Notes under the pieces: model-generated
Told to the model about the DNA's origin: nothing
Seen by the model: only the letters and a program-made list of their open reading frames with translations
Database searches by the model: none
Made by a program: the position numbers and the translations under genes
Shown here: positions 41,901 to 63,663 of the stretch, in pieces
How positions within the stretch are numbered: the stretch's first letter is position 1
Layout of the letters: each line of letters starts with the position of its first letter
From: Eretmocerus hayati
Taxonomy: Eukaryota; Arthropoda; Insecta; Hymenoptera; Aphelinidae
DNA: 64,000 nucleotides
Assembly (NCBI GenBank): GCA_029851415.1
Contig: CM056742.1
Span: 58,802,454-58,866,453, forward strand
Reading direction: 5' to 3'

Positions 41901-44544
41901 ATGAGTCGATGATGATATCTACTCAAAATGAAATCGATGAATGAGTGCAAATTCAACCAGACTTGAGATGTCTTGTAATATGAGATGCGATCTCTTTTGT
42001 GCTTTATAGCACAGAAAGAGTTGCCATTCAAACCAAACCAATTCTTGAAAATGAGATTATATCTTGGACAATCACTTGAAAATGAATATGCACATGTATA
42101 TGGTACAGTATGCATAGCTTATTTTCCAAAACCAAATATTTACAGAATGAGATAGTGAATCTCATCTGCACAAGGTACAGAGAGAATCTTGATCAAAAAT
42201 AGAGCTGAACCAGAACTAAATGAAAAAACATGCAGCGAACCCATGGATCAAAAATTGAGTGAACATTCAGCCATTCAATTTTCCAAACCCAAATGAACTT
42301 TTGAGTGTACCAAGTGCAAGATATTTTGAATATCTACTATTACCTGGGATGAGTCAAAGAAACTCTGACTCAAAAACTGTTCGAAGGCAATGCCTGCGCA
42401 GCAGTTGTGTGATAAAATTCCGAAATTCCACATCCATATGTGACCAGTAAGTTCTGCATACGACCAATTAGCATCAGCTCAGTCAATCCAATTGCCAATC
42501 CAATCCAATTGTGATCAATCTAACCAGTGTACGCCTGCTGAGACGTCGAAGTTGTGACAGGTTGTAGAATCGGCTGCAGTGATGTTCCTCAACAAAAGAT
42601 ATGCAAAATGAGAACGAATCGTGGATGATGGTGAATATCTATGGCTAATCGTACATACTATTTAAACATGATAAACATCCACGAGATTCTAATTTCCACG
42701 ACTTTTTGACTTCATGAAAAATAGAAGAAATTATCAACTACAGCGCGAAGTTTGACGAAAAGTCAGCAATTGTGCATCAAAATGCACTTCCAAATATCTA
42801 TAGCGAAGAGTAATCAGTCCAAATAAATCAAAATTTCGGAAATGAAGAACATAAAATGTTCTCGCAATTTATTGCATGCTGAGATATGCCAGAAACAATC
42901 CAAACATTCACCAAGAACTTTAGTCAAAGGACACGTATACACGGTTGACCAAGATGACATTCAAAATCCAACTTGAAAATAAAGTATGATCGAGATTCTC
43001 GTTCATCTGATCGAGTGAAATCCATCGCATAATTTTCCGACAATTCCTGAAAATTTCATACAACCAAGTAATGGACTATTTGGTTTGAGAGTATTCGAAA
43101 CTAAGAATGCAAAGCGCTGTTGATCGAAATATCAAAAGGCCACTTGAAGAATCAACCTAGTTCCTGATATTAATCAGAACTGATATTAACATCCAACCAA
43201 AAAAGACGATACGAAAACGCGTAAAAGTTGCGAGCCCGTTGCTCCATTCAACTTTGTATTTTGACCATGAATCCAACTTGAAAATCGATTTGCGTAGCAA
43301 AAACAATATCCATCAAATATGCTGAGTGAGAGTCAATACCGAATATAAATGCTCGGCCAAGCGCAACCAAAACAAACCATCATATGCTTGTTGAGTCTCT
43401 CACCAGCTGAGCGCATCTTTGTGCGTGAGCGCGAGAGAGACAGCGCTCCCAGCGCACGCAAGTATAGCCATCCAAACGAGAAAGGTATATGAAACGATAC
43501 GCTCACCGCGATGAGCTGGTCAAGCAACCCAGCCAACTCATCCCCACCAATCCAGTGTACGCGCCCAGGCAGTAGAGTCGCGCAGCAGGAGAAGTCCCCT
43601 CTCCAGTCGCATCGCCGATCAAGACGAAACAGGGGAAGAGTGGCGGGCTGATGGATGACGCCGTTGTGACGTCGTCGCGGCAAACAGCAGGCTCGAACGA
43701 TGATGAATCGCGGGAAAATTCTGCGATTCGCGCCAAAACCAATGCGCTACCTTGCTGCTGCACAACTGCTCTGGGGCCAGGATATCCTTTTTGGACCTCG
43801 ATGATGCCGTTGATTGTCGGCGATGCCATCCGAAGCCGAATTCTTACAAGTCCCGCGTCGAACACTCACATTCGACGGACGCGAACTCTGATTGCTCCGC
43901 GCACTATCACATCACCTGCACTCGCGCGCGACGAGATTCACTCGCGTCCAACGATGCCATTAAAACCGATAATTACCAATTGAATTACCGATGTGCGCTT
44001 AGCCCCAACCATGCTCTGCTCCCAAAAATGATATATTCTTCGAAAATTACTCGCCCAATAAATAAAATGATATAGAGGTGGGATGAGGCGCTCAAAACGA
44101 AGGGGCAGTGGAAGCTTATTATGTAATTATTAGTACACTCGGTTAACTGAATAAAATAGCACTTTAATCACCGAACTTGTGTGATAACAAACTTGGAAAA
44201 AAGTAAAGACGCGGAGAGAGGTGAGGGGTGAATCAGTCGCGGAGAAAACAATTGTTAGATGAATTTAGGCGCGAACTTGCTGTCTCGCCGATCCATGGTC
44301 AACTGACTGCCAAATCGCTCACGGATGATTGACAGCGGCAAGGTGCGAGGTGAGATGCAACGTTGCCCAATTTCATATTCAAATGCACCAATGGCCAGAG
44401 TTTTACAGATCGAACGAATCGAGGGGGGCACAAGGGGTCATCGCTCTCGTACCTCGCAATTTGCTTTCTCAAACATTCGAAAGCTACAAAAATCTCCAAC
44501 ATTTCGAGCTAAAAGGAAATACTTGCACATTTCCGAACATACAG

Positions 44545-46222
44545 GTTGCCTTAATTCATCCGTAAGTCAACAATGGTTCCCTCGGACCACTTTCTACACT
44601 TGCTAACATCCCTTCGTACCGGAAAATCTCGGAAAATTTGTAGGATTTTCCAAATTTCCCGAGAATTTGATCTTTTACTAGAATAAATCACCATGCCTCA
44701 TTCAACTTACACATACCACTGTTATAAATGATGAGATCACTTCAAGATATATGAAAACTTCTATTGTAATGAGATATGCACAAAATTTGATACGTGTGAT
44801 CTTCCAAAGATGTGTCAATAACATTCAGTGCCCACCAAAAATAATGGAACATTGATACTCGCACAAAAACATCGACTGCTCAAGGACTATTGGTCGTACG
44901 GCAATTTTGGGAAAAGCATCTCAAAGATCGGAGAAATGCTAACTTTCCATGTATCTCAAAGAGTCTTTTCATGTATTTTCCATGTCCAGTATTCACTGTC
45001 AAAAAGTGAAATTTCTCAAGTCGCCCCAATCACCTGTAATTTTCACGGGCATGGACGGATCGAAAAAACTCAACAGGATCTTGTAGAACTTTCCAAGACC
45101 TCCAATTCCCTCTTCTTTAAAATTCTCTTCGATGATATTAAGCCATACAATCACCCTCGGACGACAACGATGAAATATTCGTGCTACCTGTATGGTTCTC
45201 AGGATGTTTCGCTTCATTTTTATCCGACCTCGTTTGTGAACATGAAATATGACTTCGAAAAATGTCAAAGGCCACATGATCGATGTAAAATTGTCTGGAC
45301 TTTCAGAAAATGCGGTTGAGATTGCCCTCAAATGCGCTCCTGGAGAGCTACGTTCGTTTTTCTTCATATCATTATGATTTTTCACTCAAAACCGTATTTG
45401 AATCGAACGTAGCTCTTTAGGAGCGCATTTGCGGGCTGTTTCATCTACATTTCCTGAAATTGCAGACAATTTCACGTGGATAATGTGTCCTTTGAAATTT
45501 TTCCACAGTCATATTTCATGTCCACAAACGAGGTCGAATGAAAATAAAGCGGAACATCCCTGGAACCATACAGGTAGCACGCATATTTCATCGTTGTCTT
45601 CCGAGAGTGATTGTTTGGCTCAGAATCATCGTAGAGAATTTCAGAGAAAAGAAAATTGAAGGTCGTGGAAAGCCCTCCAAGATCCTGTTGAGTTTTTTTC
45701 GATCCGTCCATGCCCGTGAAAATTACAGGTAATTGGGGTGACTTGAAAAATTTTACTTCTTGACAGTGGATACTGGACATGGAAAATACATGAAAAAACT
45801 CTTTGAGTCACATTAAAAGCTAGCATTTTTTCCGATCTTTGGGACGCTTCTTCCAAAATCGCCGTACGACCAATAATTTTTGAGCAGTCGATGTTTTTGT
45901 GCGAGTATCGATGTTCCATTATTTTTGGTGGGTACTGTATGTTATTGACACATCTTTGGAAAATCTTACGTATCAAATTTTGTGCATATCTCATTACAAT
46001 AGAAAATTTCATATATCTTGAAGTGATCTATCTCATCATTTATAACAGTGGTATTTGTAAGTTGAATGAGGCATGGTGATTTATTCTAGTGAAAGATCAA
46101 ATTCTCGGGAAATTTGGAAAATCCTACAAATTTTCCGGGATTTCCCGGTACAAAGGGATGTTAGCAAGTGTAGAAAGTGGTCCGAGGGAACCATTGTTGA
46201 CTTACGGATAGATTAAGGCAAC
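44545..46222. mobile_element. 1678-bp palindromic foldback element
   Basis: The ends read GTTGCCTTAATTCATCCG and the inverse of GTTGCCTTAATCTATCCG. The arms are about 800 bp and meet near 45,385; shared landmarks are the ACAATGGTTCCCTCGG block near 44,570 and its inverse near 46,180. It sits between the LTR-like element and the right arm of the outer foldback. No target duplication can be read, because the left neighbour is the end of another element. Frames around 44,828-45,319 and 45,472-46,012 are arm sequence read on each strand, not genes. Confidence 0.88.
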
Positions 46223-46730
46223 GTGTGAGCACCAACAAGCCAATAACGAGGTGTGAACCGCTCAAATTTACGCATTGACGGGATCAAAAACATGGGGAAC
46301 TGTCCGTCAACTGACAAAGACGTGTTATATTTTCCCGGGGTTTTCGTTGGTTTTACTGAAAGTGGACACGTAGACGAAACTTTTAAGCTTTGGTAGGTCA
46401 AAAAATTCCATTCCACGTCTGTTCTGCAGGTCCTCAAGAACTGAAAATTTCGACTTTTTCAAAACTTCATGAATTTTTTCCGGGAAAACTATGCATTTTC
46501 ATGGATTTCGACGTAAAATCATTCAACTAACCTTAAAAAAAATTTTTTCCGTCAATTGAAAGAAATTTTCAATTGTTTATGAAAAATTGTTGATAACTTT
46601 TTTTTGCATCACTTTGCGACATACTACCATCGAAATTCGGATTTAGCGGATCAAAATACATCGAAATCATTTTGTTTCATCCGGGGACACCAAAACCCCT
46701 ACGGAAACCCCTTCAGCCGCCAGACTAGTA

Positions 46731-47419
46731 TCAAGAGATCCTCTAATCTAAATCATCATCGGCTTCTCCTCATTCATGATAAATGGATATTTTCTCACCC
46801 TGTCCTCTCCGTGAAATACAATACCCGACAATATTAGTGGATATCGTATAGTCTCAGTGAACCAACGATTACTTTGGTTCACTCCATCGTGAAGGGAATT
46901 TTACAAGACGGAATCGAAGATCGGAGAAGTAGAGGTGCTACACGAAAATCCAACAATTTTAAATTCAATTGGACACTTTGTCCATTTAAAATACATGGGG
47001 AAGCCGTCTGAGCGAAAAGCATTGGAGGTATATGAAAATCACACGTTGAAAATGCTCTGTCTCCCACAGCCCCCCTCTTACAGTATGCTCAGCAGGTCAT
47101 GGTGCAACACCATGCTCTGCAGACCACGGTGCATCCAGCACATGTATGCTCTGCATACCACGGTGCTGCCTGTATCCAGCATATAAGGCTATGTCAATAT
47201 ATGTCGGGCAGACCGAGGCTTGAATATCCGTGGCTATACAGCCGTTTGAGGATTCTACAATTCATTGCCGTCGTTGTCCCCCACAACGAGTTTGCTGCCG
47301 CCCTCCTCCTCCTCATCGCAGCAAGTCATCGTTCTTACGTGTATCCGCCGCCACCGTTGCCCTCGTCCTCGCAACAAGTTCTCGCTCCCACATAAGGCCA
47401 CCGTTGCCCGCATCACCAA

Positions 47420-47425
<6 letters not shown>
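46731..47425. other. Gene-free spacer before the R2-like gene
   Basis: Contains short internal repeats around 47,095-47,165, where ATGCTCTGCA.ACCACGGTGC occurs twice. No convincing gene. Confidence 0.4.
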
Positions 47426-47426
<1 letters not shown>

Positions 47427-47474
<48 letters not shown>

Positions 47475-47480
47475 CTCTCT
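47427..47480. repeat. (CT)n microsatellite
   Basis: A CT dinucleotide run of about 22 units followed by imperfect CT-rich sequence. Confidence 0.9.
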
Positions 47481-47520
47481 CTTTCAATATTCACTCTACC
47501 ACCAAGATGAGTTCTCTTTA

Positions 47521-47925
47521 CCTCTTTCGCTCACTCTTGCTACCCGAGACTGCTAACATTCATTCCGTTAGAATGGAACTTTAAATGTATAGGAAGTATT
47601 ATACTTTAATCTACACCAATACCTCTCCCGCTCACTCTTTCTGTACCGAGATAGTTAACATTCATTCCGTTAGAATGGAACTTTAAATGTATAGGAAGTA
47701 TTATACTTTAAACTACACCAATACCTCTCTCGCTCACTCTTTCTGTGCCGAGACAGTTAACATTCATGCTGTTAGAATGGAACTTTAAATGTATAGGAAG
47801 TATTATACTTTAAACTACACCAATACCTCTCTCGCTCACTCTTTCTGTGCCGAGACAGTTAACATTCATGCTGTTAGAATGGAACTTTGAATGTATAGGA
47901 CGTATCATACTCTAAACTACACCAT
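47521..47925. repeat. Four tandem copies of a 101-102-bp repeat upstream of the R2-like gene
   Basis: CCTCT..CGCTCACTCTT begins units at 47,521, 47,622, 47,724 and 47,826. Each unit carries CCGAGA, GTTAACATTCAT, GTTAGAATGGAACTTTAAATG and TATAGGAAGTATTATAC. Units are more than 90% alike. The array ends about 90 bp before the predicted start site of the R2-like gene, so a regulatory role or a place in a viral terminal repeat is possible; neither is shown. Confidence 0.92.
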
Positions 47926-48079: not shown

Positions 48080-49360
48080 ATGTCTGCAATCAAAATGATT
48101 TGTGTGTGTTTTATCACGGTATTGACCATGTACTATTGTTACTTATATCATGGTCAGTCAATAATTCAACTGTTTGCGAAGAAAGAAGAACCCGTGGAAG
48201 TGAAAGTTAATTCCACTTGGTTCTATTTACAGTGTACATGCACAGTGATTGTGGTTATAAGTTTCACAATGTGTTTGAAGAATATAGTTGAAAAACGGAA
48301 GAAACTCGAGATAAAGAAGGGATTCGTGCTTCTTCAAGAAAAAATGATTCAGTATGATGCGACATTAGAGAGTGATGCATCGCTCAAGGACTTGGAACAT
48401 GAGGAACCTCTGTTGGTAGCAAATCATGATAGATTTGTGCTGTTCCCAATTAAATGGTCTTTCATCTGGCGACTCTACAAAAAAGCAGAGGGATCCTTTT
48501 GGGCTGCTGAGGCGGTGGATGTTTCCAAGGATTCATCTGATTGGAATCAATTAAATGAGAGTGAAAGAAACATCATTTCTCATGTTCTCGCGTTTTTTAC
48601 CGCCTCGAATACTACATTGAACAAAGATTTAATTCTGAACTTATGTAAGAAAGTTCAGATCCCAGAAGCGAGGTCCTTCTACGGCTTTCAAATAGCCATG
48701 GAGAATATCCATCATGAGATGTACGCACGGCTTCTGGATACATATGTCACTGATGACATATACAGAGAATTCCTCCTCAACACGTCACGTATACAGAAGT
48801 GTATATCGATGAAGATGGAATGGAGTTTAAAGTGGATTAACAACTGTTCAACGTCGTTTGCTGAGAGGTTGGTAGCATTAATAGCTCTCAAAGAACTCTT
48901 CTTCAGCAGCAGTTTTGCAGTAATTTTCTGGTTCGAGCATAGAAATCTCCTACCAGGTCTTTCATATGCAAATAGACTCATTTACAGAGATCATGACTTA
49001 CATAGTCATTTTTCATGCATACTTTTCAAGAGTCTTGAAAGGAAACCATCGGAAGCGAAAATTAAAGAAATTATCATGAGTGCTGTGGAGGTGGAGAAGA
49101 AATTCATCCATGAGTTTCTTTCGCTAACATCAGTTGGAATGGATAGAACTCTAATGAATCTACATGTTGAATATGTTGCTGACTGGTTACTGATAAATTT
49201 GGGGAATATGCCAGCCTTCGGTGGTGGACACCGTCTTCCATTCGTCAAAAAGGTTTCCTTCAAAGGAAAACGCCATACATTCAACATAACGGTATCAGAG
49301 CATGAGGGGTGGAAATCCAGTGGAGGGTCCACAAAGTTTACCATCGACTCGGACTTTTAA
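48080..49360 (+). CDS. Ribonucleotide reductase small subunit (R2)-like protein with N-terminal membrane segments
   Basis: A 426-residue intronless gene. R2 proteins hold the diiron-tyrosyl radical that lets ribonucleotide reductase make deoxynucleotides. Two hydrophobic segments (residues about 4-24 and 46-66) precede the R2 fold, which starts near residue 130 (EGSFWAAEAVD). Kept residues are D147, E208, H211, H308, the radical tyrosine Y215 (in ENIHHEMY) and the C-terminal FTIDSDF tail that docks to R1. Two metal ligands are replaced: the usual second-helix glutamate is K271 (LKELFF, with E272 next to it), and the glutamate of the R-D-E-x-x-H motif is H305 (RDHDLH). The first ATG is used; an upstream TTG is possible. 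It may be viral cargo or a diverged host retrocopy. Confidence 0.88.
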   Translation: MSAIKMICVCFITVLTMYYCYLYHGQSIIQLFAKKEEPVEVKVNSTWFYLQCTCTVIVVISFTMCLKNIVEKRKKLEIKKGFVLLQEKMIQYDATLESDASLKDLEHEEPLLVANHDRFVLFPIKWSFIWRLYKKAEGSFWAAEAVDVSKDSSDWNQLNESERNIISHVLAFFTASNTTLNKDLILNLCKKVQIPEARSFYGFQIAMENIHHEMYARLLDTYVTDDIYREFLLNTSRIQKCISMKMEWSLKWINNCSTSFAERLVALIALKELFFSSSFAVIFWFEHRNLLPGLSYANRLIYRDHDLHSHFSCILFKSLERKPSEAKIKEIIMSAVEVEKKFIHEFLSLTSVGMDRTLMNLHVEYVADWLLINLGNMPAFGGGHRLPFVKKVSFKGKRHTFNITVSEHEGWKSSGGSTKFTIDSDF

Positions 49361-49411
49361 AAAAAAAAAATTACTGCTAATGCTTTAAGTATAAGAAGAG
49401 AGGGGGAACAG

Positions 49412-49447
49412 TATATAAGTTAGCATCGACACATATAAAGTGTTAGT
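49412..49447 (+). promoter_or_regulatory. Predicted promoter of the small spliced gene
   Basis: TATATAAG at 49,412-49,419 lies 32 bp before TTAGTT (49,443-49,447), an initiator-like word, and about 40 bp before the start codon. Confidence 0.5.
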
Positions 49448-49453
49448 TCAACA

Positions 49454-49884
49454 ATGTTCTCAATAGGAAGAGACGGTGAGTGTTACTTAAAAAAGATTTA
49501 ATCTCTCCCTTTCTCTCTCTTTAATAAAATTTCCTCTTCTTTCTAGGGCAACTAGAAGTAATTAACGCGCTCATAAATTATGAGCGAGATTACGTTTACG
49601 GTGATTCATTTATCCACTACTGTATAGCATATCAACATTTAAACGTCTCACACAGATTTTCAATTGTGTTTGAGCTAACTGGCGGACATTCACTTCTATC
49701 AGTCTTCACTTACCACAGACTTGACGATGGAATTTTTGAGATTGATGAGAACACAAGTGGCTATAATAGATGCTTACCAAAAACGTACTACAAAATTGGA
49801 AATATTAAAGAAATTGCTGGTTTTATCTGGCATTGCAGACACCACCTCTCAAACATTCAAGTGGTTGATTTGAAAAGGAGGTGA
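49454..49884 (+). CDS. Small spliced gene of unknown function
   Basis: Two exons, 49,454-49,475 and 49,547-49,884, encode about 119 residues. The 71-bp intron has a GTGAGT donor and a pyrimidine-rich tract ending TTCTAG, and the reading frame continues across it. An AATAAA signal follows at 49,887. The protein is mixed alpha/beta by composition, with no signal peptide, membrane span or motif I recognise. It lies between the R2-like gene (same strand) and the integrase (opposite strand, convergent), so it may belong to the Maverick element. Confidence 0.6.
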
Positions 49885-49985
49885 GTTGAATAAATGATGT
49901 TTTCATTCCTCAATGGTGAGTGCGGCGAATGATATTAAATATTTCCATTCAATCATTCTAGGTTACAGATTCAACCGGGAAGATA

Positions 49986-50056
49986 GTTGGAATAGCTCAG
50001 TGCGAGAGTGTATGACTGAAGATCACAATGTTCTCGCTTCGATCCAGAGTTCCAAC
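49986..50056 (+). tRNA. tRNA-Phe-like sequence (anticodon GAA), possibly a pseudogene
   Basis: The acceptor arms GTTGGAA and TTCCAAC pair perfectly. TAGCTCAGTG fits the D arm/A box. The anticodon loop CTGAAGA gives GAA with four of five stem pairs, and TTCGATC fits the T loop/B box, but the T stem pairs at only three of five positions. The length is 71 nt. Confidence 0.5.
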
Positions 50057-50100
50057 AATCGTCGAATGAGTTCCGCGAATAAGCTATGAGGTTCACCAAA

Positions 50101-50171
50101 GCCGAAATAGCTCAGTTGGTAGAGCTTATGACTATAATGATGCGGTCCTCAGTTCTAGTTCGAGTTTCGGC
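50101..50171 (+). tRNA. tRNA-Phe-like pseudogene
   Basis: The acceptor arms GCCGAAA and TTTCGGC and the D arm TAGCTCAGTTGGTAGAGC match metazoan tRNA-Phe closely. The anticodon stem does not pair in the normal register and the loop reads CTATAAT, so it cannot be a normal tRNA-Phe. It lies 45 bp after a second tRNA-like sequence. Confidence 0.5.
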
Positions 50172-50382
50172 AAAAATTTTTCTTTCTTTAAAAAATTTTT
50201 TGATTTTTTTTTATCTTTTTTTTTTCAATTTTTCTATTTCTTTCATTTTTTTGAAAAAATTTTTTCCTTTCCCTCCTTAATATCTGTTACGAGTGAAAAT
50301 ATGTGAGGTACGTTTAATGAATAAAAAATGCTGTCATTCATTTTTTTAAAAAAGTGTAATTTTCTTTTATTTCTCAAACAAT

Positions 50383-51345
50383 TCATAAAAATGATTTCTG
50401 ATCTATCCAACTATTCATGGATGAAGGTAGCCCCCACCATTTAACCAAGGATTTTCCAGCTTTCCTCCTTAATATTTTTTCCACTAAATAGACATTGGGA
50501 TCATGCACCTTGGATAATTCTTGTGAGTAAAATTGACCTGATATTGGATCATCTTTATCATCCACCAGATGATATGTAATGGGCCATGCATTATGATTTA
50601 CTCGAGCAATTCTGAAAATCTCAGCTGTCCAGTTGGCTGTATATCCCTTTGAGAAGATGGTTTTATATTTTGATACTCGCACATAATCACCCACTTTGAA
50701 TTTAGATTCTTTCGAGAGATGTGGTTCACTAGCATATACAGTTTTCAATAATCTCGATTCAATTTTCGACTGGTTGGTGGATCGTTTCCACACCTGTATA
50801 GGTTTCATACCAATAGTTCTATGAACATCATCGTAATTATACTGGTGCACCAAGTCCTGTATAATATCAATCCAACGATAACTCCCTCTGAGTGAAAAGG
50901 AACGATATATCTTTCCCTTGATTGTTCTTATGAAACGTTCAACAATTGATGCCTTACAAACTGAGTACGAGGAATAATGATTGATATTTCGATCTTTCAT
51001 CAGCTGTGAAAATTTAGAGTTGTAAAATTCAGTGCCTTGATCACTCTGTAAGTTTTTTGGCTTCCTTTGCTCCCTATCCAAGATCGATTTAAACGCTTCA
51101 GTGACGTGTGAGGCTTGTTTTGTCTTGATTGCAATGCACCATGCATACTTGGAAAATACATCTATCACAGCGAGTATATACTTATAATTTTTGTTAACTT
51201 TTGCATAATTGATCATAACTACAATATCAATCTGCCAAGTGTCATCAATCCCTCGCACATCTACTCTCCGACGAAGGAAATTCTTCCTCGCTGGAGCATG
51301 AAGCTCCTTAACCAACTGTCTTTTTTGTAAACTGTATTGATCCAT
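50383..51345 (-). CDS. Retroviral-type integrase with C-terminal chromodomain
   Basis: An intact 320-residue protein that would insert the element into host DNA. The catalytic core shows D40 (WQID), D102 (LQSDQGTEF) and E136 (SIVERFIRT). A C-terminal chromodomain spans about residues 284-317 (VEKILRRKAGK, VKWWG, NSWI), as in Polinton integrases, where it is thought to steer integration to chromatin marks. There is no obvious N-terminal zinc motif. The ATG at 51,345 follows a TATA/TCAGT promoter, and AATAAA lies 12-17 bp after the stop. It is the leftmost gene of the leftward set. Confidence 0.92.
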   Translation of the reverse strand: MDQYSLQKRQLVKELHAPARKNFLRRRVDVRGIDDTWQIDIVVMINYAKVNKNYKYILAVIDVFSKYAWCIAIKTKQASHVTEAFKSILDREQRKPKNLQSDQGTEFYNSKFSQLMKDRNINHYSSYSVCKASIVERFIRTIKGKIYRSFSLRGSYRWIDIIQDLVHQYNYDDVHRTIGMKPIQVWKRSTNQSKIESRLLKTVYASEPHLSKESKFKVGDYVRVSKYKTIFSKGYTANWTAEIFRIARVNHNAWPITYHLVDDKDDPISGQFYSQELSKVHDPNVYLVEKILRRKAGKSLVKWWGLPSSMNSWIDQKSFL

Positions 51346-51385
51346 ATTTGTATAGAGGTATGTATACTACCATCTCACTCATTTA

Positions 51386-51420
51386 ACTGAGCTCAACGTC
51401 CAATAAGATAGTTACTTATA
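51386..51420 (-). promoter_or_regulatory. Integrase promoter (TATA + TCAGT)
   Basis: On the minus strand TATAAG begins at 51,420 and TCAGT has its A at 51,388, 32 bp apart, ahead of the integrase start. Confidence 0.65.
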
Positions 51421-51518
51421 CCATATTGTAGTGAGATAGGGATGTAGAGGAGGGGGAGGGGGTAGGGTTTAATTAAAAGAAAAAAAGTCAGATTTTCATT
51501 GTATACAATTTTTTTTAT

Positions 51519-52232
51519 TTATATATAATCGAATTGTGATTCAGGTGTATTGATAATGCTTCTGTAATGTTTCAAATATGATTCTTTTTCGAGATGATAC
51601 ATGTATTGCACTGTTCGCTTAGCACATGTATATTTTGAATTATCGTGGAATTCACATGGTGTATAGTTGAATTTCTCAGTAAAGTATCCATCCTGGTTAA
51701 CGCGACAAGTTTGAAAGATGTTTTTCATCCAATATCTCGAATGTTTTCGGAAAAGATGAGGTAGTTGTCTGCTCAACCATCTTTTTTTCACATCACTCCC
51801 AAAATAAATAATATCCATGCGAAAATGTGAACGCGAATATTCAAGCTCATCCAGTAGAGGTGCTAGCATCTCACTCCACGGTACAGAGCCTGCAGACCAT
51901 GGAATGTTGTGAACATAAGTTCGATGATGAATCATTTGTCCCACATCACTAGCTGATGGTGTTCCAATCTCTGGTGGTGGGCCTACTGTATAATGAAGAA
52001 TCTTGTATGATGTTGGACAACATTCATACATTTCTCGATTGAGAAGAGCTATTTCTTTTGGAAAAAAGTCTCGACCAATGGTATAGCCTTGTATATCAAG
52101 ATAAAATTTATTAGCAGCCATAGGACTTGCTGCCTCCATCCGATGTTTGAAATCATCTACGTTTGCAACATTGGACCACCACATCTTTCCAACAGTTGCT
52201 ATTGTCTCCTGCTCCTCCTTCAACAATTGCAT
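51519..52232 (-). CDS. Maverick-associated protein, possibly exonuclease-like
   Basis: An intact 237-residue protein lying between the integrase and the capsid gene. Blocks DIQGYTIGRDFFPKEIALL near the N terminus, IIYFGSDVKKRWL near residue 140, and a C-terminal TPCEFHDNSKYTCAKRTV resemble an uncharacterised family seen in arthropod mobile elements. There a D.QG...KE motif and a C..H.....CA motif recur, and the fold looks RNase H-like. That link is from memory and tentative. AATAAA overlaps the stop codon (51,519-51,514). Its function is unknown. Confidence 0.55.
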   Translation of the reverse strand: MQLLKEEQETIATVGKMWWSNVANVDDFKHRMEAASPMAANKFYLDIQGYTIGRDFFPKEIALLNREMYECCPTSYKILHYTVGPPPEIGTPSASDVGQMIHHRTYVHNIPWSAGSVPWSEMLAPLLDELEYSRSHFRMDIIYFGSDVKKRWLSRQLPHLFRKHSRYWMKNIFQTCRVNQDGYFTEKFNYTPCEFHDNSKYTCAKRTVQYMYHLEKESYLKHYRSIINTPESQFDYI

Positions 52233-52313
52233 TCTCCTTCTCTCGAAGCAATTGTTCCTATCAAATTCCCTCTCAAATTGCTCCCACTCCTCCCGTGAAG
52301 GCTTGAACAGAAA

Positions 52314-53528
52314 TCAAATCATCTTCTGAACAATATTTGTCAGTGGGTTGTACTTGACGAGTTTATCATGAATTATGAGACAGTAGGCTGTTGTATTTTT
52401 TGGAATATTTTCTTTGAACTCGAGTTCAACTCGAACATCCACTACTGATGATTTCACCGAATCAGCTGACTCACTAACATCAAACACGAGAATCGGGAAT
52501 GAATCCTCAAAATTTTGTTTACTAATTGAAACATTGCTTTTATCAGCGTGATAATAACTCTTCCTAAAAGCCTTCAACATTTCAAATAAGACAGAAGTAT
52601 TCTGAGCCTTGGCAAAGTCGATGTGAAGATGTTCATAAGGATATGCTTCAGAATTAAGGAAGATTTTTGCATTAACAATCTTGCAGTGATCAAATTTTGA
52701 CATGTCCTTCTTCTTGCTGTTATTCCTAGCGGTCTGGAAGGCAATAATGATGTACCGAGGTTTCTCCAGCTGAGTTGTGCTCTTAATAGGCCATATTAAT
52801 TGAGAGGTTTCGGGCATTGTTGGAAGTTCACAGAGATCCCAGCTTCGGTATGATAGGAACAAAGGAGTGTTTCTTTCAAGAATTTTGAGTAGGCGAAGAC
52901 GTATCAAATCGTTTGGATATATATGAGTCATGTGTAAAGTTACAGCAGTCAGATTGATTTGTGGAGCGCACTCTTCACTCGTTGTTATCACACAATTGTT
53001 TTCATTTTTTGATCTGAGCAGTACTATATCATGTTTTGCAAATGCTATAACCCGTCTAAAGTCTTCACAAAAACCAAATATTTTACTGAGTGGAATAGCA
53101 AAGTTGAATCCGTGACCTGAGCTTATAGTGTAGTTTCCTATATGATGTCCTGCATTAGTCATAGACTTATCTTCATCCGCAGAAAGTGAAACAAGATTTT
53201 TCAGACCAACACTGATACCAGGATTTTTTGTTTCATCAATAATCACGTTGTTAATCTCATAGCGAATCATGTCAAAGAGGAAAAGTAGGAAATCACTTAT
53301 CAACAGAATACTTTGCTCCTTATCGAATACAATATTGCCTTCAATATAGAGATAACTATCACTTGGAAGCAGTAGACTGTCAGATGAGGATACTGTAATC
53401 CGTATCTCATCATTCCGCTGTAAATTCTGGAAATTGTATGGTTGATACTTCCGTACCATTCGCCGTGAGATGCTATCGTCCATCACAGGCCTCTCGGCAA
53501 TATCAAGAATATGATTACGCCCAGCCAT
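52314..53528 (-). CDS. Probable major capsid protein (double jelly-roll, hexon-like)
   Basis: An intact 404-residue protein, ATG at 53,526-53,528. Conserved-looking blocks include KYQPYNFQNLQRNDEIRI near the start, TTQLEKPRYIIIAFQTAR, the FDHCK..N.K.FLNSE.YPY segment, and a terminal TTAYCLIIHDKLVKYNPLTN. I recognise this pattern from the large capsid-like proteins of arthropod Mavericks. Position next to the penton-like gene and size support the major capsid role. It would form the trimeric shell subunit. The sequence alone does not show the fold, so the call is an inference. The gene overlaps the small gene upstream. Confidence 0.65.
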   Translation of the reverse strand: MAGRNHILDIAERPVMDDSISRRMVRKYQPYNFQNLQRNDEIRITVSSSDSLLLPSDSYLYIEGNIVFDKEQSILLISDFLLFLFDMIRYEINNVIIDETKNPGISVGLKNLVSLSADEDKSMTNAGHHIGNYTISSGHGFNFAIPLSKIFGFCEDFRRVIAFAKHDIVLLRSKNENNCVITTSEECAPQINLTAVTLHMTHIYPNDLIRLRLLKILERNTPLFLSYRSWDLCELPTMPETSQLIWPIKSTTQLEKPRYIIIAFQTARNNSKKKDMSKFDHCKIVNAKIFLNSEAYPYEHLHIDFAKAQNTSVLFEMLKAFRKSYYHADKSNVSISKQNFEDSFPILVFDVSESADSVKSSVVDVRVELEFKENIPKNTTAYCLIIHDKLVKYNPLTNIVQKMI

Positions 53529-53685
53529 TTTTCCTCACTCTAAAGCCTTGTGATTGAAGAAAAAGTATACTTTTCTTTGAGAGCGGAATTCTTCCTCTCA
53601 CAATAGGTTTCGTAGTGCGTCCCGTTCGAGTCACCCCGCTCAACTGAGCGGGGCTCGTGTTTACTGGTAGATTATATAGATACAT
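53515..53685 (-). CDS. Small basic protein overlapping penton and capsid genes
   Basis: A 56-codon frame from ATG 53,685 (a GTG at 53,700 is also possible). It overlaps the end of the penton-like gene by 14 bp and the start of the capsid gene by 14 bp. The product is rich in arginine, lysine and serine (TRTGRTTK, GRIPLSKKS). Such size and charge would suit a virion core peptide. Nothing else identifies it, and it could be non-coding. Confidence 0.45.
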   Translation of the reverse strand: MYLYNLPVNTSPAQLSGVTRTGRTTKPIVRGRIPLSKKSILFLQSQGFRVRKNGWA

Positions 53686-54436
53686 GACCCACTCTCTCAC
53701 GCAAATGGAAACGCATAGTGATTACTTCACCTCTATTATTAATCAAGTTACCGTCTTGATCCAAGAGTCTAATACATATATTACGTATATCGTTTGTGCG
53801 CGTTTGTAAATAAACAATATTTTTTGGTTCTACGGTGTATTGTTCACCAATCGGAACTCTACCAGCACAATATTCAAATATGGTGTAACAAGGCTCCCCG
53901 TTGTAAAAGGTACCTTTAATCAGGTTACACTCCACCCGCACAATATTAACTCGACTAATTTTCACAATGTGGTCAGACTTATGCCATCTGTAGGCTGGTA
54001 GAGACAACCTACTACCAAAACCCAAAAGTTGACCTATATTGTTTGAATTGAAGAAATTGATGTCGTGATGTGAGTAAATCTCGCAGTGTAAGGTGTTTTT
54101 ATTCACGCGCAAAAAAATTGGTTTCTCCCTCAATTCTAGTGGAATAGTTTTATCCTCCTCTTCCTCAGCGTGTGCACTAGATGGAACTCTCAGAGGTATG
54201 TGTTCCTGCAAATAGCGTTCCAAATCTTCTATTTCATAAGATCCTGTTGGTATTTGTAGTTCCTTATCACCCCAGTAGAAGGTGTTATTATTCCTATCAA
54301 CATTGGGGATGGCGTGGAAAGTTGTTAAATCAACCAGACCAAGCTCATAGATCTTATTGGGACACAACTGCTCTCTAAGCCTAATGTTCTGATCAATGTG
54401 CGATGAGGTACTCGAGACTGTAAACTGTTCAGACAT
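53672..54436 (-). CDS. Minor capsid (penton-like) protein
   Basis: An intact 254-residue protein. The order of blocks is characteristic of the Maverick penton: an N-terminal IPNVDRNNNTFYWGD, then PTGSYEIEDLERYL, LHCEIYS, IGQLLGF, HKSDHIVKIS..NIVRVECN, and a C-terminal LLDQDG...RGEVITMRFHLRE. It would occupy the capsid vertices as a single jelly-roll pentamer. It overlaps the small basic gene by 14 bp, and its own promoter has TATAAAAGGTGATGC about 55-60 bp upstream. Confidence 0.75.
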   Translation of the reverse strand: MSEQFTVSSTSSHIDQNIRLREQLCPNKIYELGLVDLTTFHAIPNVDRNNNTFYWGDKELQIPTGSYEIEDLERYLQEHIPLRVPSSAHAEEEEDKTIPLELREKPIFLRVNKNTLHCEIYSHHDINFFNSNNIGQLLGFGSRLSLPAYRWHKSDHIVKISRVNIVRVECNLIKGTFYNGEPCYTIFEYCAGRVPIGEQYTVEPKNIVYLQTRTNDIRNICIRLLDQDGNLINNRGEVITMRFHLRERVGHVSI

Positions 54437-54488
54437 CTTTCACAACTGATCTGCGATAAGCAACTGGCTCAAAGTCAATCACGCATCA

Positions 54489-54497
54489 CCTTTTATA
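54489..54497 (-). promoter_or_regulatory. TATA box of the penton-like gene
   Basis: TATAAAAGG on the minus strand (54,497-54,489), followed by TGATGC. The same TATAAAAGGTG.TGC word stands before the coiled-coil gene at 57,756. A TCAGT initiator lies 50 bp downstream (A at 54,447). Confidence 0.6.
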
Positions 54498-55542
54498 GGA
54501 GATGTTCCCTCAAAAATTTCACACTCAGCGGACCGCAATTACTCTGACGAAAGGTTTGACGCTGACTCCTGTTATAGACAATTTGACAATCCGGGGAGCT
54601 CTTCTTCCAATAATTTACCAACTCACGTGGTGGCCTCAAATTCCCAAAACTATTGAAATAATGAACAAAGCGGTTTCTCTTTATGTATGCAACCCAGTGT
54701 GCATTACCCAGATTCACTATTGCCGCTTCGGTTTCCCACGCAGGTGGAGGGGGGAGTTCAGTTAGTGAAAATACACCTCTAAAGTGAGGTATGTTGTGAG
54801 CTAACCTCAATAGTTGACTCCCCGACGTACCTTTCACTTTTTTCTTCCCCCTCCCTTTCGTTTTTTTGAGATTTTTTTTTTTTCTCAAACCACCACCATA
54901 CTGGTTGCTGCAAGACGATGGACTCAATCGCAATCCCCGACCTTTGGCCTCTAATGCAAGATTATGTCTCCTCAATTCAGCCAATTGCTTCTTATTCATA
55001 CGCATGGTACTAATGGATTTGGCGACATTTGCAGCACCCCCTGCTAATGAACCCAATGCTCCAAGTGCTGCTAGGGTGGGTAGAATTGCTGGTAAGAAAC
55101 CTCCTCGTTTTGCCAGGGCAAGAGTGCGCATATTCACACCAGCAAGAGCCCTCCCTCCTCTCCTCTTCCCCCTCCTTAGCACATTCTTACGCTTCTTCAG
55201 GCCCATCCCAAATCGTCGCTTAGCACGCATGGTTGCTGCAACTGCTTTTGCAGCTAACCTCTCCAAGAAACCTCCTTCTTTCGCACGTTTTTCAGCCCCA
55301 AGCTGGAGGGCAAGATCAGCAACGTGTCGATCCTTAATATCTTTGCTTTTTGCATAAGCTATATCATGCTTCATACAGTAGTTGTCGAGCTCGTTCCTAC
55401 CCCTATCACCTCGTGCGAGCCTCTTATGTAATTTAGTTCCTGGACCACAAAATTGATAGCCTGGAAGATGGAATTCGAAAGGGAGGCTGTTGATGGTGGA
55501 ATTAACAAGACCTGCTCCTCGTAATGAATGCATTGACAGCAT
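54493..55542 (-). CDS. Phospholipase A2-like domain fused to adenain-like cysteine protease
   Basis: An intact 349-residue protein. The N-terminal part has the parvovirus-type PLA2 signature: YQFCGPG at residues 29-35 (calcium loop) and the catalytic H59-D60 in CMKHDIAY. A lysine/arginine-rich linker and a hydrophobic stretch (about residues 150-185, rich in Ala/Gly/Leu) follow. A C-terminal cysteine-protease-like domain carries H282 (AHWVAY), N297 (YFNSFG), Q333 and C336 (QSNCGP). The middle residue is Asn where Asp/Glu is expected. PLA2 would help membrane escape on entry; the protease would mature capsid proteins. The fusion could also be read as a virion core protein. Confidence 0.8.
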   Translation of the reverse strand: MLSMHSLRGAGLVNSTINSLPFEFHLPGYQFCGPGTKLHKRLARGDRGRNELDNYCMKHDIAYAKSKDIKDRHVADLALQLGAEKRAKEGGFLERLAAKAVAATMRAKRRFGMGLKKRKNVLRRGKRRGGRALAGVNMRTLALAKRGGFLPAILPTLAALGALGSLAGGAANVAKSISTMRMNKKQLAELRRHNLALEAKGRGLRLSPSSCSNQYGGGLRKKKNLKKTKGRGKKKVKGTSGSQLLRLAHNIPHFRGVFSLTELPPPPAWETEAAIVNLGNAHWVAYIKRNRFVHYFNSFGNLRPPRELVNYWKKSSPDCQIVYNRSQRQTFRQSNCGPLSVKFLREHLL

Positions 55543-55570
55543 ATGTTCTCCATGTCAAACATGGAATCCA

Positions 55571-55632
55571 ACTGAAGCATCACGGTATTGGTGTGGGTAT
55601 TTATACCCAATTTGAGTGATGATTGAGTCAGT
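55571..55632. promoter_or_regulatory. Bidirectional promoter with one shared TATA
   Basis: GGGTATTTATACCC (55,595-55,608) reads as TATTTATA rightward and TATAAATA leftward. A TCAGT initiator lies 30 bp away on the right (55,628-55,632) and 32 bp away on the left (55,575-55,571). It serves the ATPase (plus) and PLA2/protease (minus) genes. Confidence 0.7.
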
Positions 55633-55658
55633 AGTAGTGTGGAAAGACTCATGCAAAC

Positions 55659-56504
55659 ATGGAATTCATCAAACAGCCCAACAACATTCACATAATCGAT
55701 GTGGATGTTAACGCTCCTACACAGATCGTTAAACGTCATGGAAAGCTCTTACCCAATACCATTAGAGCTATCATATGTGGACCATCCAACACCGGGAAAA
55801 CCCAGCTCCTGATATCCCTTCTAGTCAGTCCCAATGGTCCTAATTTTAATAACATTTACGTATACTCAAAGTCTCTTGAACAACCCAAATACAAATTCCT
55901 TGAGAGTGTTATGAAACCACTTGCTGCTGTGGGTATGAAGTATTTCACATTCAGAGAAAATAGTGATATAGTAAAGCCCAGTGAAGCTTTGAAGAATAGT
56001 ATTTTCATATTCGATGATGTTATCTTAGATAAGCAGAAAACGATTGAGGAATATTATAGTATGGGCAGACATAACCAATTAGATTTATCTTATTTATGTC
56101 AATCGTATACTCACATTCCGAAACATCTAATCAGAGACCAGGCCAATTTAATCATTCTATTCAATTAGGATGAGGGAAACTTGAGGCACGTTTACAATAA
56201 TCACGTTTGCGCAGATATGACGTTTGATCAGTTCAAACAACTATGTTCAGCCTGTTGGAAAGATAACAGATACGGTTTTCTAACTATCTCAAAAGATGAT
56301 CCAATGTATCTGGGTCGTTACAGACGTAACCTAAATGAATTCATCATACTGAGATCAGGTCAGTCGTGTCTGAAACGTTATCATGGCAAGAGCAATGACA
56401 AGCAAGAAAGTGAAGAAAGAGGTGAAACAGAAGGGGGGAGGGGGATCAGGAAGAAACAAAAAAAATGCACAAGAAAAACTAAAGATTCAAATTCACAAGG
56501 CTAG
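55659..56504 (+). CDS. FtsK/HerA-type (A32-like) genome-packaging ATPase, in-frame amber stop
   Basis: Would pump viral DNA into capsids. Walker A is GPSNTGKT (residues 41-48) and Walker B is IFIFDD ending at D119-D120, followed by LCQSYTHIPKHLIRDQANLIILF, the arginine-finger region typical of this family. A TAG at 56,166-56,168 ends the frame after residue 169. The same frame then continues with family-like sequence (DMTFDQFKQLC, GFLTISKDDP) to 56,504. So this is either a nonsense-mutated copy or a readthrough gene. It shares a promoter with the PLA2/protease gene. Confidence 0.85.
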
Positions 56505-59684: not shown

Positions 59685-62600
59685 TTACATATTCTTTCCC
59701 ACGAGTCTATAATCACCATATGCAAGAGTCTCGATACCGTCTTCTAGACAAACTCTCTTATCATCAAAAGGACTTATGAAAACTTTTTTTTCCTTAACCG
59801 AGAAGACAATGTGATTGACACTCCTAATACTTCTTTGTTCACCCGATAAAATTTCTTGATTAAGTAAACAATTCTTATAGTCTTGGAAAGTGATTCGATT
59901 TTTTATTTGCACTCGACTCACACCTTTTGCACATTTTTTCTCTAGAGTGCCTGCCTCTGTTTGGAGCAAGAGACTATATGATTTTGGTCTTAAAAAAACA
60001 GCCTCTCTAATGATGGATGTGGGACATTCATCTGACATAATTCCTGGAACTTTTTTATTCAAATTGATTGGAATGCTATATTTATTATTCGGTGGATATA
60101 CTGAGGTGTCAAAGTGTGAATGACAGTCTCTTTTAATCATATTTTCATAGAAATCAAAAGAAAAACTGTATAGTAGTCCATCGGTGTCTACGTATAATAA
60201 CTTACTCTGATCACCCGGAAAGTTCTTCATTACATAGTTATAGTGAAAATTATATAGTGTGATTTTGGATAGGTCTAAAATAGAAAAACCAACGTATACC
60301 GGTTTACCGATTTCTATTCGAGTTTTCGCCATTTCCACAGCAATGAGATTGTCACTAAAGATAACCATACGCTTAAAGCGGTCTGAGGCTGCAAGTGCTG
60401 AAGCACTATGACGTCCGTCCCACTTACTAATTAGTTTAACGTCAACACGTCTCCTCATATTTTCAATGCATTTTCCGAAGATGCTGTTATTCATCATCTT
60501 GTATAGGTTCTTATCAAAGTCACTCGTAGACATCTGTCTAAAACGAGTATTCAAATTGATGTAAGGTGCTAGCCAGGCACTCTGTTCAAATTTCAGAATT
60601 CTTGAAATTTTGGTTAATATTAAACCATTCGCTAAACACTGCTTTAGATATCTATAATGAATGATATAATCTTTTTTGTCATATAACGTTGTCATTAACT
60701 TATAATTTTCATGTGTGGCACCAGGGGGAATCATCTTCTCGGGTGCAAATGGTAAATCAGAGTGATATTCATGAATACTCGCTGGATATTCTAAATCAAC
60801 CATGAGTATGTAGCCAACGTTTGAATCATCAGGAATTTTCTTTACGTCAAAATTTAGGTCTTGAACCCATTCAAAATTTTTTACTGGTAGCGGCTGTTGC
60901 ATTGCAAAACCATATGAATTGTTAACGTCAAAATAACCAATGAATTTCTGCTCCTTGGAGCTATTAAAATCAGGCATGTATTGATTATTTGATTCTGCGT
61001 AGTGTCTAACAGCACAACATATACCACCTCTTATACCTTGTTCTAAGAATAGCAACATTGTTGGACATTTTATTATTTCTAACTCAATTTGAGTGTGTAA
61101 TAACATACACTCCCAGGTGAAGCCTGGGAGTGTGAAGAAATGAGCAGGGTCTAGTCTATAACTCTTCATAGAACTTGAACGAAAATTCTGAAAAATATCA
61201 GCAAGCAGTAGAATATCGCATTTCATGTAGAGCAGAGCATACTCGCACAAGTTTTTGATCTCAAACATGTTCCACACTTGTTTAACATGGTCGTAATCAG
61301 ATTCAGAGATGGAAGTCTCTGTTAATATATTATAAAATTTATCTCTAGATGGTATCTGTGTTTCACCAAGTTTCTCCATACTATCAACATAGTCATATGG
61401 AAAACTGCCTTTACGAGTCAACAAATTGAAAATCTCTGCTTGATCCAGCCCCGTTCGCTGTGCGATCGATTGAATTTGCTCTCTGAATTGCGAGTAGAGA
61501 ATAGTTTTCTGGTTATTTGGTAAGAGACTAGCAAGGTTATCCAGACCTGCGTTCAGAAATTTTAGGGAATCAATGAAACGGAGCTGGATCCGTGAGTTTT
61601 TATATATTTCGTGAAGGAGATATAATTTTCAGTATTTTGAGGGATTATAGATATCTCACCCTCGATTGCATTCGCTATGTCAGTAATGATGAAATGTGCA
61701 TCATACCTGTTGAAAGAAAAAAAAAAGAAATGATTGAATGTATTCATGGTGTGTTGAAGGAATTCAAATAGTTGAAACTCACCGAGAAAGGTTGTGGTAT
61801 ATAATTGGAATGATGAATGATTTGCGATATGCTAGATTACATGATCGATGTGCTAAAGATCTTGGTCTGCCTGTGTGGTGGTCGTGGTCAATTACAGGAA
61901 CGTCTTCTGAACCAAACTCCTTCTCACATATATGACATGCTGTAACTCGTTGAAGGCGCATTTGTTCCTCATCAGTCAAATTGAGTGGAATGGGGTTTGA
62001 CAACTCCTGGAAAATACACATGAAAAAGTAAATTCAAATAGAACCATGAGAATTATCCAAGTTTTTTTATTTTTATTACTCACTTGTTCCACTTCTTGTG
62101 CAATTTTTTCAAGTTCCAGGGCAAACCATCTCGAAACATCAGTTCCAACGTGATGAGCGTACACAGACTTCTCAGATTTATATTTATTTAAATAAAAATA
62201 TCCTATGGAGAATGGAATATGCCTTTGATAGGCATTTTGAGCCAATTTAACGTTGGCTAACTTGTTTACATTAATATCATTTGAATTTTTGAAATACTCT
62301 GAATCCGTTTTGGTTAAATAAGATTCAAAATCTGAATAAATCACACAAGGAATTTCTAACATCTTATGATAGTTAGTAAATTTCACAACATCTTCCTTTG
62401 GGAAAGTGACAACAGACTGATCTCTAGTTTTTAAACATAATTCTCTATGTGTATTAAGTTTCTCATCCGTGTAGAAATAATGAAGACATTTCCGACATAT
62501 GAAAACACGATTTCTAATGGTTGGTGCCAACAATTTAGATAAGTCCTTAATGTATAGATAGTGATTATCAAGTAGGAGCAAATCAATATGATTCGTTTGC

Positions 62601-63663
62601 TCAGCTTTCGTTATATACAGAGGATAAAAATTCTTTTCAGAGTGGTCGACTCCATACACATTTACACTGTAACCCTTGTTCTGCTTCTCAAATTTTGGAA
62701 TAGATTTAATTTTAACTGGGAAGCTCATCTTTGAGAAATTGAAATGTAAATCAGGATCTGGATATGCGTTCTTCAAATGTTCATTTTTTTTTTTGAAACT
62801 GTTATTGATGAGGCAATGAGAGCATACTTGAAACAGTCTTCAGAATCAGTTTGGATGTTGATAACAGCACCCCGCTGGAGAATCCATTTGGGTACATGTG
62901 CTGCTGACGATCCATGTATAGGATTATGCTTAATTATATTAATTTTTAAATTTAAAATTTCAGAGAGGGTCCAACCACTACCCTCACCTTCATGTTCAGA
63001 TATTTGATTGATAATATCTTGGGAAGAAGTGGTATACCATTTTCTCACGTTATCAGATGAAGCCAAACTCTTATAATGAGTTTGGAAATATTTGATATCT
63101 GATGAAGAATCAAGCAGCTCAAATTGAGCTGCTAATATTAAATTGACTTTGATGTTCTTCAGTTGTTTCCTTGTTAATCTAATGAATTTCAAGACTTTCA
63201 ATTCTGCAGCTCTCAAGAATTCATTAATATTCTTATAACTAATATTTGCTACCATTCCAGTTCGAATACGTTTCTGGAATGCACTTTGGCTTTCGAAAAA
63301 TATTAATTCATCAAAATCATTCTTTTCACGTTTTGAATATCTTAGAGATAATGTCTCCCTGCAAGACTGACATCTATCTAAATAATTCTCTAATCTCGCT
63401 TTGATTCCAGTGGACTTTACATTCAATTCAGGAGAATGTAAATAATTCAGAATCATGGTTTCTAATTTTTCAAAATTCCTTACAAGTCTTGGATATCGTG
63501 ATGGGTTTGCAAAATCTTTTCTTTTAAAATAATTGAATCGTGCTATGAGAGCTTCATAATTTAATTTTATCATATCTACTAAATTCATCGTTTTACGATT
63601 CTTATACATTTCTGAATCAAACATCTTAGGATCATACATCTTAGGATTGTATATATGAGACAT
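59685..63663 (-). CDS. Family B DNA polymerase (protein-primed type), two introns, two frame breaks
   Basis: Replicates the element. From the N terminus: a GSGWTL..IL and HNPIHGSSA region, a C..C.....H...C zinc motif (CRKCLHYF...THRELC, near 62,500), Exo I SDFESYL, an endonuclease VII-like CHICEKEF...DHDHHTG...CNL module, Exo II YDAHFII, Exo III YMKCDILLLAD, palm motif A FDVNNSYG, motif B NNSIFGK and motif C YVDTDG. Polymerase aspartates are kept. Two introns (62,083-62,007, 77 bp, GTGAGT..CAG; 61,782-61,707, 76 bp, GTGAGT..CAG) fit the frame. Frame breaks lie at an 11-base A-run (T-run at 62,784-62,794) and at a short A-run near 61,598. AATAAA overlaps the stop. Confidence 0.9.

Follow-up and report, generated by a model that had tools for sequence, protein, structure and literature searches.

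A Polinton of Eretmocerus hayati carries an R2 homologue with lost catalytic residues and a likely N-terminal membrane anchor

What might a ribonucleotide reductase R2 do once residues on which its catalysis depends have been replaced in a reading frame that stays open? The question is posed by a gene, here called R2-C, in a stretch of 64,000 nucleotides of the Eretmocerus hayati genome (the window). We conclude, with a probability of roughly 0.9, that R2-C is the cargo of a Polinton and an R2 pseudoenzyme; that it would also dock to R1 and regulate the host enzyme is a reading to which we give about even odds.

An R2 gene within a Polinton

The R2-C frame is intact and occupies a single exon of 426 codons; its product matches the Pfam family Ribonuc_red_sm (PF00268) with an E-value of 2.2e-83, and mouse R2 aligns with it from residue 88 to its end (E = 3e-98). 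An AlphaFold model (mean pLDDT 75) has the R2 fold and compares with human RRM2 at a TM score of 0.94. The full-length, intronless R2 frame described in an earlier note on this DNA is therefore borne out, as is the fold, albeit in a predicted model. Where at least 47 of the 48 public R2s aligned with R2-C share the same residue (150 near-invariant positions), R2-C keeps 95 and has changed 55, such that its binding to R1 or R2 could also be altered.

The gene lies inside a transposon. The left terminal inverted repeat (TIR) has its partner 2068–2623 bases past the end of the window; the two repeats, each of 558 bp, are 98.9% identical in inverted orientation by blastn, the outer termini read AGTAGAGG.../...CCTCTACT, and a perfect 6-bp target duplication, CGGAGA, flanks both ends. 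Together, the TIRs and the duplication place R2-C within a complete Polinton of 19.7 kb, of which it is the leftmost gene (Table 1); the Maverick that the earlier note had taken for a neighbour is thus the carrier of the gene. When the window is aligned to separate insertions, the match with L010 and with L007 begins exactly at the TIR, and that with L011 two bases before it. Outside the Polinton, at 44541–46226, there is a foldback-like palindrome with arms of ~820 nt, in which pieces are 82–96% complementary, and a 41-nt loop.

Table 1. Features of the Polinton and of the R2-C gene, in window coordinates
Feature	Position	Strand	Evidence
Left terminal inverted repeat	46928..47485	.	blastn; partner L030:2068-2623
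Tandem array of a 102-bp unit (four copies), lying between TIR and R2	47519..47924	.	TRF score 679
R2-C gene, ATG to stop (catalytic residues lost, N-terminal anchor likely)	48080..49360	+	ORF, Pfam, alignments
N-terminal region (aa 1–90) with a pair of hydrophobic helices, likely a membrane anchor	48080..48349	+	hydropathy, family B homology, model
Codon 271 (AAA): Lys in place of ligand E233	48890..48892	+	alignment, codon comparison
Codon 305 (CAT): His in place of ligand E267; older copies have CGT, Arg	48992..48994	+	alignment, codon comparison
Codon 408 (CAT): His in place of radical-relay Y370	49301..49303	+	alignment, codon comparison
R1-docking heptapeptide FTIDSDF	49337..49357	+	sequence comparison
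Small gene, probably spliced; by eye, three exons separated by short GT-AG introns	49454..49986	+	sequence, exon 2 translation
tRNA-like gene, apparent GAA (Phe) anticodon	49986..50057	+	Rfam RF00005, 41.4 bits (gathering 29)
Second tRNA-like gene	50101..50172	+	Rfam, 37.1 bits (gathering 29); ARAGORN without full anticodon
Retroviral-type integrase	50383..51345	-	PF00665, E 4e-15
Double jelly-roll major capsid protein	52314..53528	-	PF21738, E 7e-98
Phospholipase A2-like protein	54493..55542	-	PF08398, E 3e-11
A32-type packaging ATPase	55659..56168	+	PF04665, E 5.5e-9
Probable DNA polymerase B, split over three ORFs	59685..63663	-	sequence motifs

The element shares with animal Polintons/Mavericks its TIRs, 6-bp duplication, rve integrase, double jelly-roll capsid protein, phospholipase A2-like protein and A32 ATPase; it differs in the R2 next to the left TIR, in the two tRNA-like genes, and in a probable polymerase recognised by motif alone. 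The last of these, a candidate for the protein-primed DNA polymerase B of Polintons, is represented by an ORF at 59685–61424 containing DVNNSYG, KMMNNSIFGK and DTDG, which we take to be DNA polymerase B motifs, and none of the three ORFs on this side has a matching Pfam, NCBIfam or PDB entry. The same three-ORF split is seen in L051, an element of R2 family B (the families are defined below). Exon 2 of the small gene has no Pfam match; this stretch is ~81% identical in family B elements and is also aligned in L013. At the first tRNA-like gene of the window ARAGORN makes no call; elsewhere, it calls a tRNA-Phe (GAA) just before the integrase in all four family B loci scanned (L023, L024, L025 and L026), a tRNA without a full anticodon in L009–L011, and no tRNA in the three scanned loci of family A. 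The ORFs of the window element that were scanned include no second R2 and no R1, and give no Pfam match to NrdI; hence, an R1 partner for R2-C would be expected from the host or from a different element, and an active R2 partner would likewise come from elsewhere.

Catalytic residues, docking tail and N-terminal region

R2-C retains four of the six class Ia metal ligands (D139, E170, H173, E233, E267 and H270 in mouse R2): Lys271 stands at the position of E233 and His305 at that of E267, both of which are glutamate in 48 of the 48 aligned public R2s. A third lesion, absent from the earlier note, is His408 in place of the mouse relay tyrosine Y370 (Y356 in E. coli), again tyrosine in 48 of 48. 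This tyrosine carries the radical from R2 to R1. It is, in the available text of PMC8463856, essential and conserved in all characterised class I ribonucleotide reductases (RNRs), from which R2-C departs. Trp130, Asp147, Glu208, His211, Tyr215 (the radical tyrosine, Y177 in mouse), Asp304, His308 and the last Phe are all kept, and the C-terminus presents, by sequence, the R1-docking heptapeptide FTIDSDF. The residue-by-residue alignment accordingly confirms what the earlier note had read from the frame, namely, a lysine at an expected glutamate, a histidine in the R-D-E-x-x-H motif and hence a broken metal site, together with a radical tyrosine and a docking tail that persist. We infer that the protein would be able neither to make nor to pass a radical.

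The N-terminal region precedes the R2 domain and is missing from the family A reference. Its two hydrophobic stretches have Kyte-Doolittle means of 1.81 and 1.92 over 19 residues, but a buried core helix of R2-C reaches 1.93 by the same measure (in family B, the N-terminal maxima are 1.49 and 2.54, and the core helix 1.73), so that membrane insertion is likely but not proved by hydropathy. In the model, the corresponding helices (residues 3–32 and 46–75) fall in a low-confidence part, and a cluster of Lys and Arg residues follows helix 2. The B and C N-termini are homologous: their local alignment scores 71 against a shuffle mean of 27, a score reached in none of 5000 shuffles and none of 5000 block shuffles. 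Of the membrane anchors proposed in the earlier note, therefore, the two hydrophobic stretches stand and gain a homologue in family B, whereas insertion into a membrane is graded as likely only. A search of the protein collection with the R2-C anchor alone yielded 28 candidates, none at an E-value of 10 or better, and among the 120 matches listed for a family B query none covers more than 81% of the query; with neither query was an anchored R2 found in that collection.

R2 copies, their history and selection

The genome searched, of 692 Mb, is assembled into 17 contigs, four being chromosome-sized, and gave at least 101 R2 matches (98 of 167 candidates scored), some of which are pieces of one gene; 45 sites, the host R2 included, were read out of the 101. 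By best reference match, the Polinton copies divide into set A (canonical residues; n = 20), set B (canonical and anchored; n = 12) and set C (anchored and degenerate; n = 12, window included). In a tree from a quick search without bootstrap, B and C each form one clade among the rows used, and A is a bin rather than a single clade. Twenty neighbourhoods of 10 kb were picked by hand, and are mostly top-scoring rather than random; 18 of these hold integrase and capsid homologues beside the R2, so that relatives next to other Mavericks, which the earlier note had proposed to look for, do exist, and the other two hold other element genes (L013) or none (L012). In two of the C copies, L007 and L013, the R2 is followed by the polymerase-side ORFs and not by the integrase, which suggests that these elements are rearranged or internally deleted.

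A separate locus, L029, contains introns and canonical R2 motifs, and we take it to be the R2 of the host. It is 88% identical to Copidosoma R2 over 336 columns and groups with Leptopilina and sawflies in the tree, in which 15 Polinton R2 rows lie on one side of a branch with an SH-aLRT value of 96. A host gene that merely sits beside a Maverick is ruled out by this intron-bearing, canonical gene and by the TIRs and target duplication; derivation of R2-C as a retrocopy of the host R2 is not supported, the Polinton rows being set apart and the host R2 falling near Copidosoma. A very long branch (2.7 changes per column) connects C to the other sequences, and for this reason family C is not placed precisely among the Polinton R2s.

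The lesions distinguish C from A and B. E233 and E267 are kept in all 32 A and B copies (L014–L028 and L034–L050), and Y370 in 28 of the 29 that cover it, the exception being L044 with Cys; single departures elsewhere are E170Q in L022, H270R in L046, Y177F in L026 and Y177H in L039, and L037 lacks both H173 and Y177. Many of these A and B frames are intact. In C, by contrast, E267 is lost from 12 of 12 copies (His in seven, Arg in five), as is Y370 (His in eight, Asn in two, Arg and Asp in one each), and E233 is Lys in nine and Glu in three, whereas D139 (10/12), E170 and H173 (11/12 each), and H270 and Y177 (12/12 each) are kept. The FTIDSDF tail is exact in nine of the 11 C copies covering it, with one change each in L007 and L013. 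Of the 12 C copies, eight are interrupted by stops, and a frame shift affects L011 close to its end; the window, L009 and L010 have intact frames.

The codons allow the order of these losses to be read in part. Codon 305 is CGT in L006, L008, L012, L013 and L032; the seven remaining C copies have CAT. One transition separates CGT from CAT, and three changes separate a glutamate codon (GAA or GAG) from CGT. L013, the most divergent C copy (66% identical to the window), has Arg at 305, and so the loss of E267 is shared, old and predates the L013 split. Lys271 is a later change that arose inside C. At the Y370 position L013 has Asp, and the tyrosine could in principle have been lost independently on its line.

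Constraint on the R2-C protein persisted well past the point at which its catalysis should have been lost. Between the window and L013, dS is 0.96 and dN 0.186, giving a dN/dS of 0.19 (bootstrap interval 0.14–0.27); the ratio is 0.30 against both L012 and L006 and 0.38 against L008, and in none of 1000 bootstraps for each of these four comparisons was it 1 or higher. Since the older C copies have decayed, these ratios probably overstate the true value. The ratio near 1 expected of random pseudogenes is thus not seen against the four older copies, and the suggestion in the earlier note of selection for something other than normal catalysis is supported. Against the intact copy L010 the ratio is 0.51 with an interval of 0.22–1.29, and L009 differs by three nonsynonymous and no synonymous changes; the purifying selection appears to lie in the past, the L010 interval being compatible with neutrality now.

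Divergence from a family B element (L024, L051) is uneven along the window element: dS is 0.23–0.39 from the integrase to p58232, and 1.3–2.1 in the three polymerase-side ORFs, whereas synonymous sites of the R2 are saturated; nucleotide identity is 92% over 50268–55897 and 81% over 49402–50093. The window element therefore looks like a mosaic, for which the simplest reading would be a C-type end and a B-type core joined by recombination. Fast evolution alone as the source of the B–C difference is ruled out by the uneven dS.

Possible role of R2-C

Our best reading is that R2-C is a formerly selected, catalytically silent and membrane-tethered R2 that would dock to host R1, and so regulate or capture it. 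The Lys/Arg cluster after helix 2 would place the protein at the cytosolic face of a membrane, where its tail would bind host R1; pairing with an active R2 could also occur. In this way R2-C might hold, redirect or restrain the host ribonucleotide reductase during replication of the element: as a homodimer it would compete with active R2 and act as a dominant negative, and a mixed dimer could give it a means of tethering an active enzyme. The earlier note had already offered a catalytically silent R1-binding partner and a membrane-tethered regulator among its options, and a role that combines the two fits what is seen here.

The closest parallel is the vaccinia virus R2, F4. In the passages available from PMC2900304, most chordopoxviruses encode R2 without R1, and F4 forms complexes with host R1; when changed at the Y370 homologue, F4 is predicted to be inactive yet able to bind R1, with a dominant-negative phenotype that disappears once the C-terminal seven residues are removed. 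Having lost two ligands and the relay tyrosine and kept the tail, R2-C resembles this tail-dependent dominant negative. The two proteins have in common a tail for host R1, and they differ in that F4 provides activity, whereas R2-C is naturally changed at the relay tyrosine and at two ligands, and is likely anchored.

Several other readings have to be set against this one. R2-C could be the structural, membrane-tethering half of a mixed dimer in which an active R2, of family B or of the host, still supplies one radical; we regard this as possible but doubtful. Its model is yeast Rnr4, which (in the available part of PMC2704937) lacks three iron-coordinating residues and is nevertheless needed for the activation of Rnr2 and for a stable diiron centre in it. 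Rnr4 and R2-C are both eukaryotic R2 paralogues retained after loss of iron ligands, and ligand loss with retained selection is indeed what is found here; Rnr4 is a host protein, whereas R2-C is element-borne and likely anchored. Such a dimer would accord with the E. coli holoenzyme, in which only one half of the R1–R2 interface is engaged at a time (PMC8463856, in the text available), and with the presence in the same genome of family B, with its homologous anchor and canonical ligands; it accords less well with the difference between C and B at 54% of aligned positions, and with the finding of neither a second R2 nor an R1 in those ORFs of the window element that were scanned. We think it improbable that R2-C is simply a passenger under relaxed constraint, on its way to becoming a pseudogene, and that the intact frames are merely those of young copies. 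The stops and the frame shift in C, its very long branch, the variability of residue 408 and the L010 interval all point that way, against which stand the ratio of 0.19 at a dS of 0.96 between lineages that share the E267 loss, and the conservation of the tail and the R2 core.

An active enzyme with another cofactor, whether through a shifted ligand at E272 or a metal-free radical of the class Ie kind, is very unlikely, even if Y215, D147, E208 and both histidines are kept. In the accessible text of PMC11846895, class Ie R2s work after the loss of three glutamates; like R2-C they have metal-ligand glutamates replaced, but at other positions and by other residues (VPK or QSK), and DOPA formation or activity depends on NrdI. 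In R2-C, E170 is kept, and across set C the other two positions are Lys or Glu and His or Arg. Glu272, put forward earlier as a shifted ligand, accompanies an intact Glu271 in L008 and L012, and L013 combines Glu271 with Gly272; Glu272 therefore predates Lys271, and compensation by it is ruled out. Another metal, the other option of the earlier note, is an unlikely resort along with any other radical system, as the relay tyrosine is gone from all 12 C copies read. There is also only a slender chance that translation starts at a later Met, leaving the hydrophobic N-terminus untranslated and the protein unanchored. No relative of that region was found in the protein collection, and it changes more rapidly than the R2 domain (dN/dS 0.28 versus 0.175 against L013); conversely, the B and C N-termini are homologous beyond any shuffle, their frame is open in the intact copies, and anchor dN/dS is below 1 in both families in every comparison having synonymous changes.

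To return to the docking, membrane-tethered R2, an extension of it embracing both anchored families can be sketched, which we hold to be rather unlikely: family B would tether active R2 at a membrane and feed replication of the element, and family C would use the same tether as a natural dominant negative, capturing host R1 and starving competing elements or viruses of dNTPs, so that animal Polintons would run their own RNR control.

Searches of open-licence papers turned up neither an R2 carried by an animal Polinton nor a membrane-anchored R2. The available portion of a gene-sharing study assigns the small subunit to Megavirales, Herpesvirales and some Caudovirales, and not to Polintons (PMC4981718), and the word 'reductase' is absent from the main text of a paper on parasitoid wasp transposons (PMC6035795). 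R2-C also differs from its counterpart in the endogenous mavirus-like element EMALE07, which belongs to a protist host and is known from a single EMALE type; the source text available mentions neither ligands nor an anchor for it. Scans of IMG/VR, limited to close relatives, returned neither R2-C nor a relative of the capsid protein, and among the best 80 of at least 576 R2-bearing loci there, none carries another protein of the window element.

That a viral R2 can work with a host R1 is already known, as is the dominant-negative behaviour of a laboratory-made vaccinia R2 altered at the relay tyrosine. In R2-C, nature appears to have altered the same tyrosine, in a protein that has partly lost its metal site, gained a likely anchor and been kept by selection. 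The Polinton life cycle in animals is poorly understood, and it is here that the value of R2-C lies: it may provide a testable handle on the dealings of Polintons with the nucleotide supply of their host, and on competition among Polintons or with viruses.
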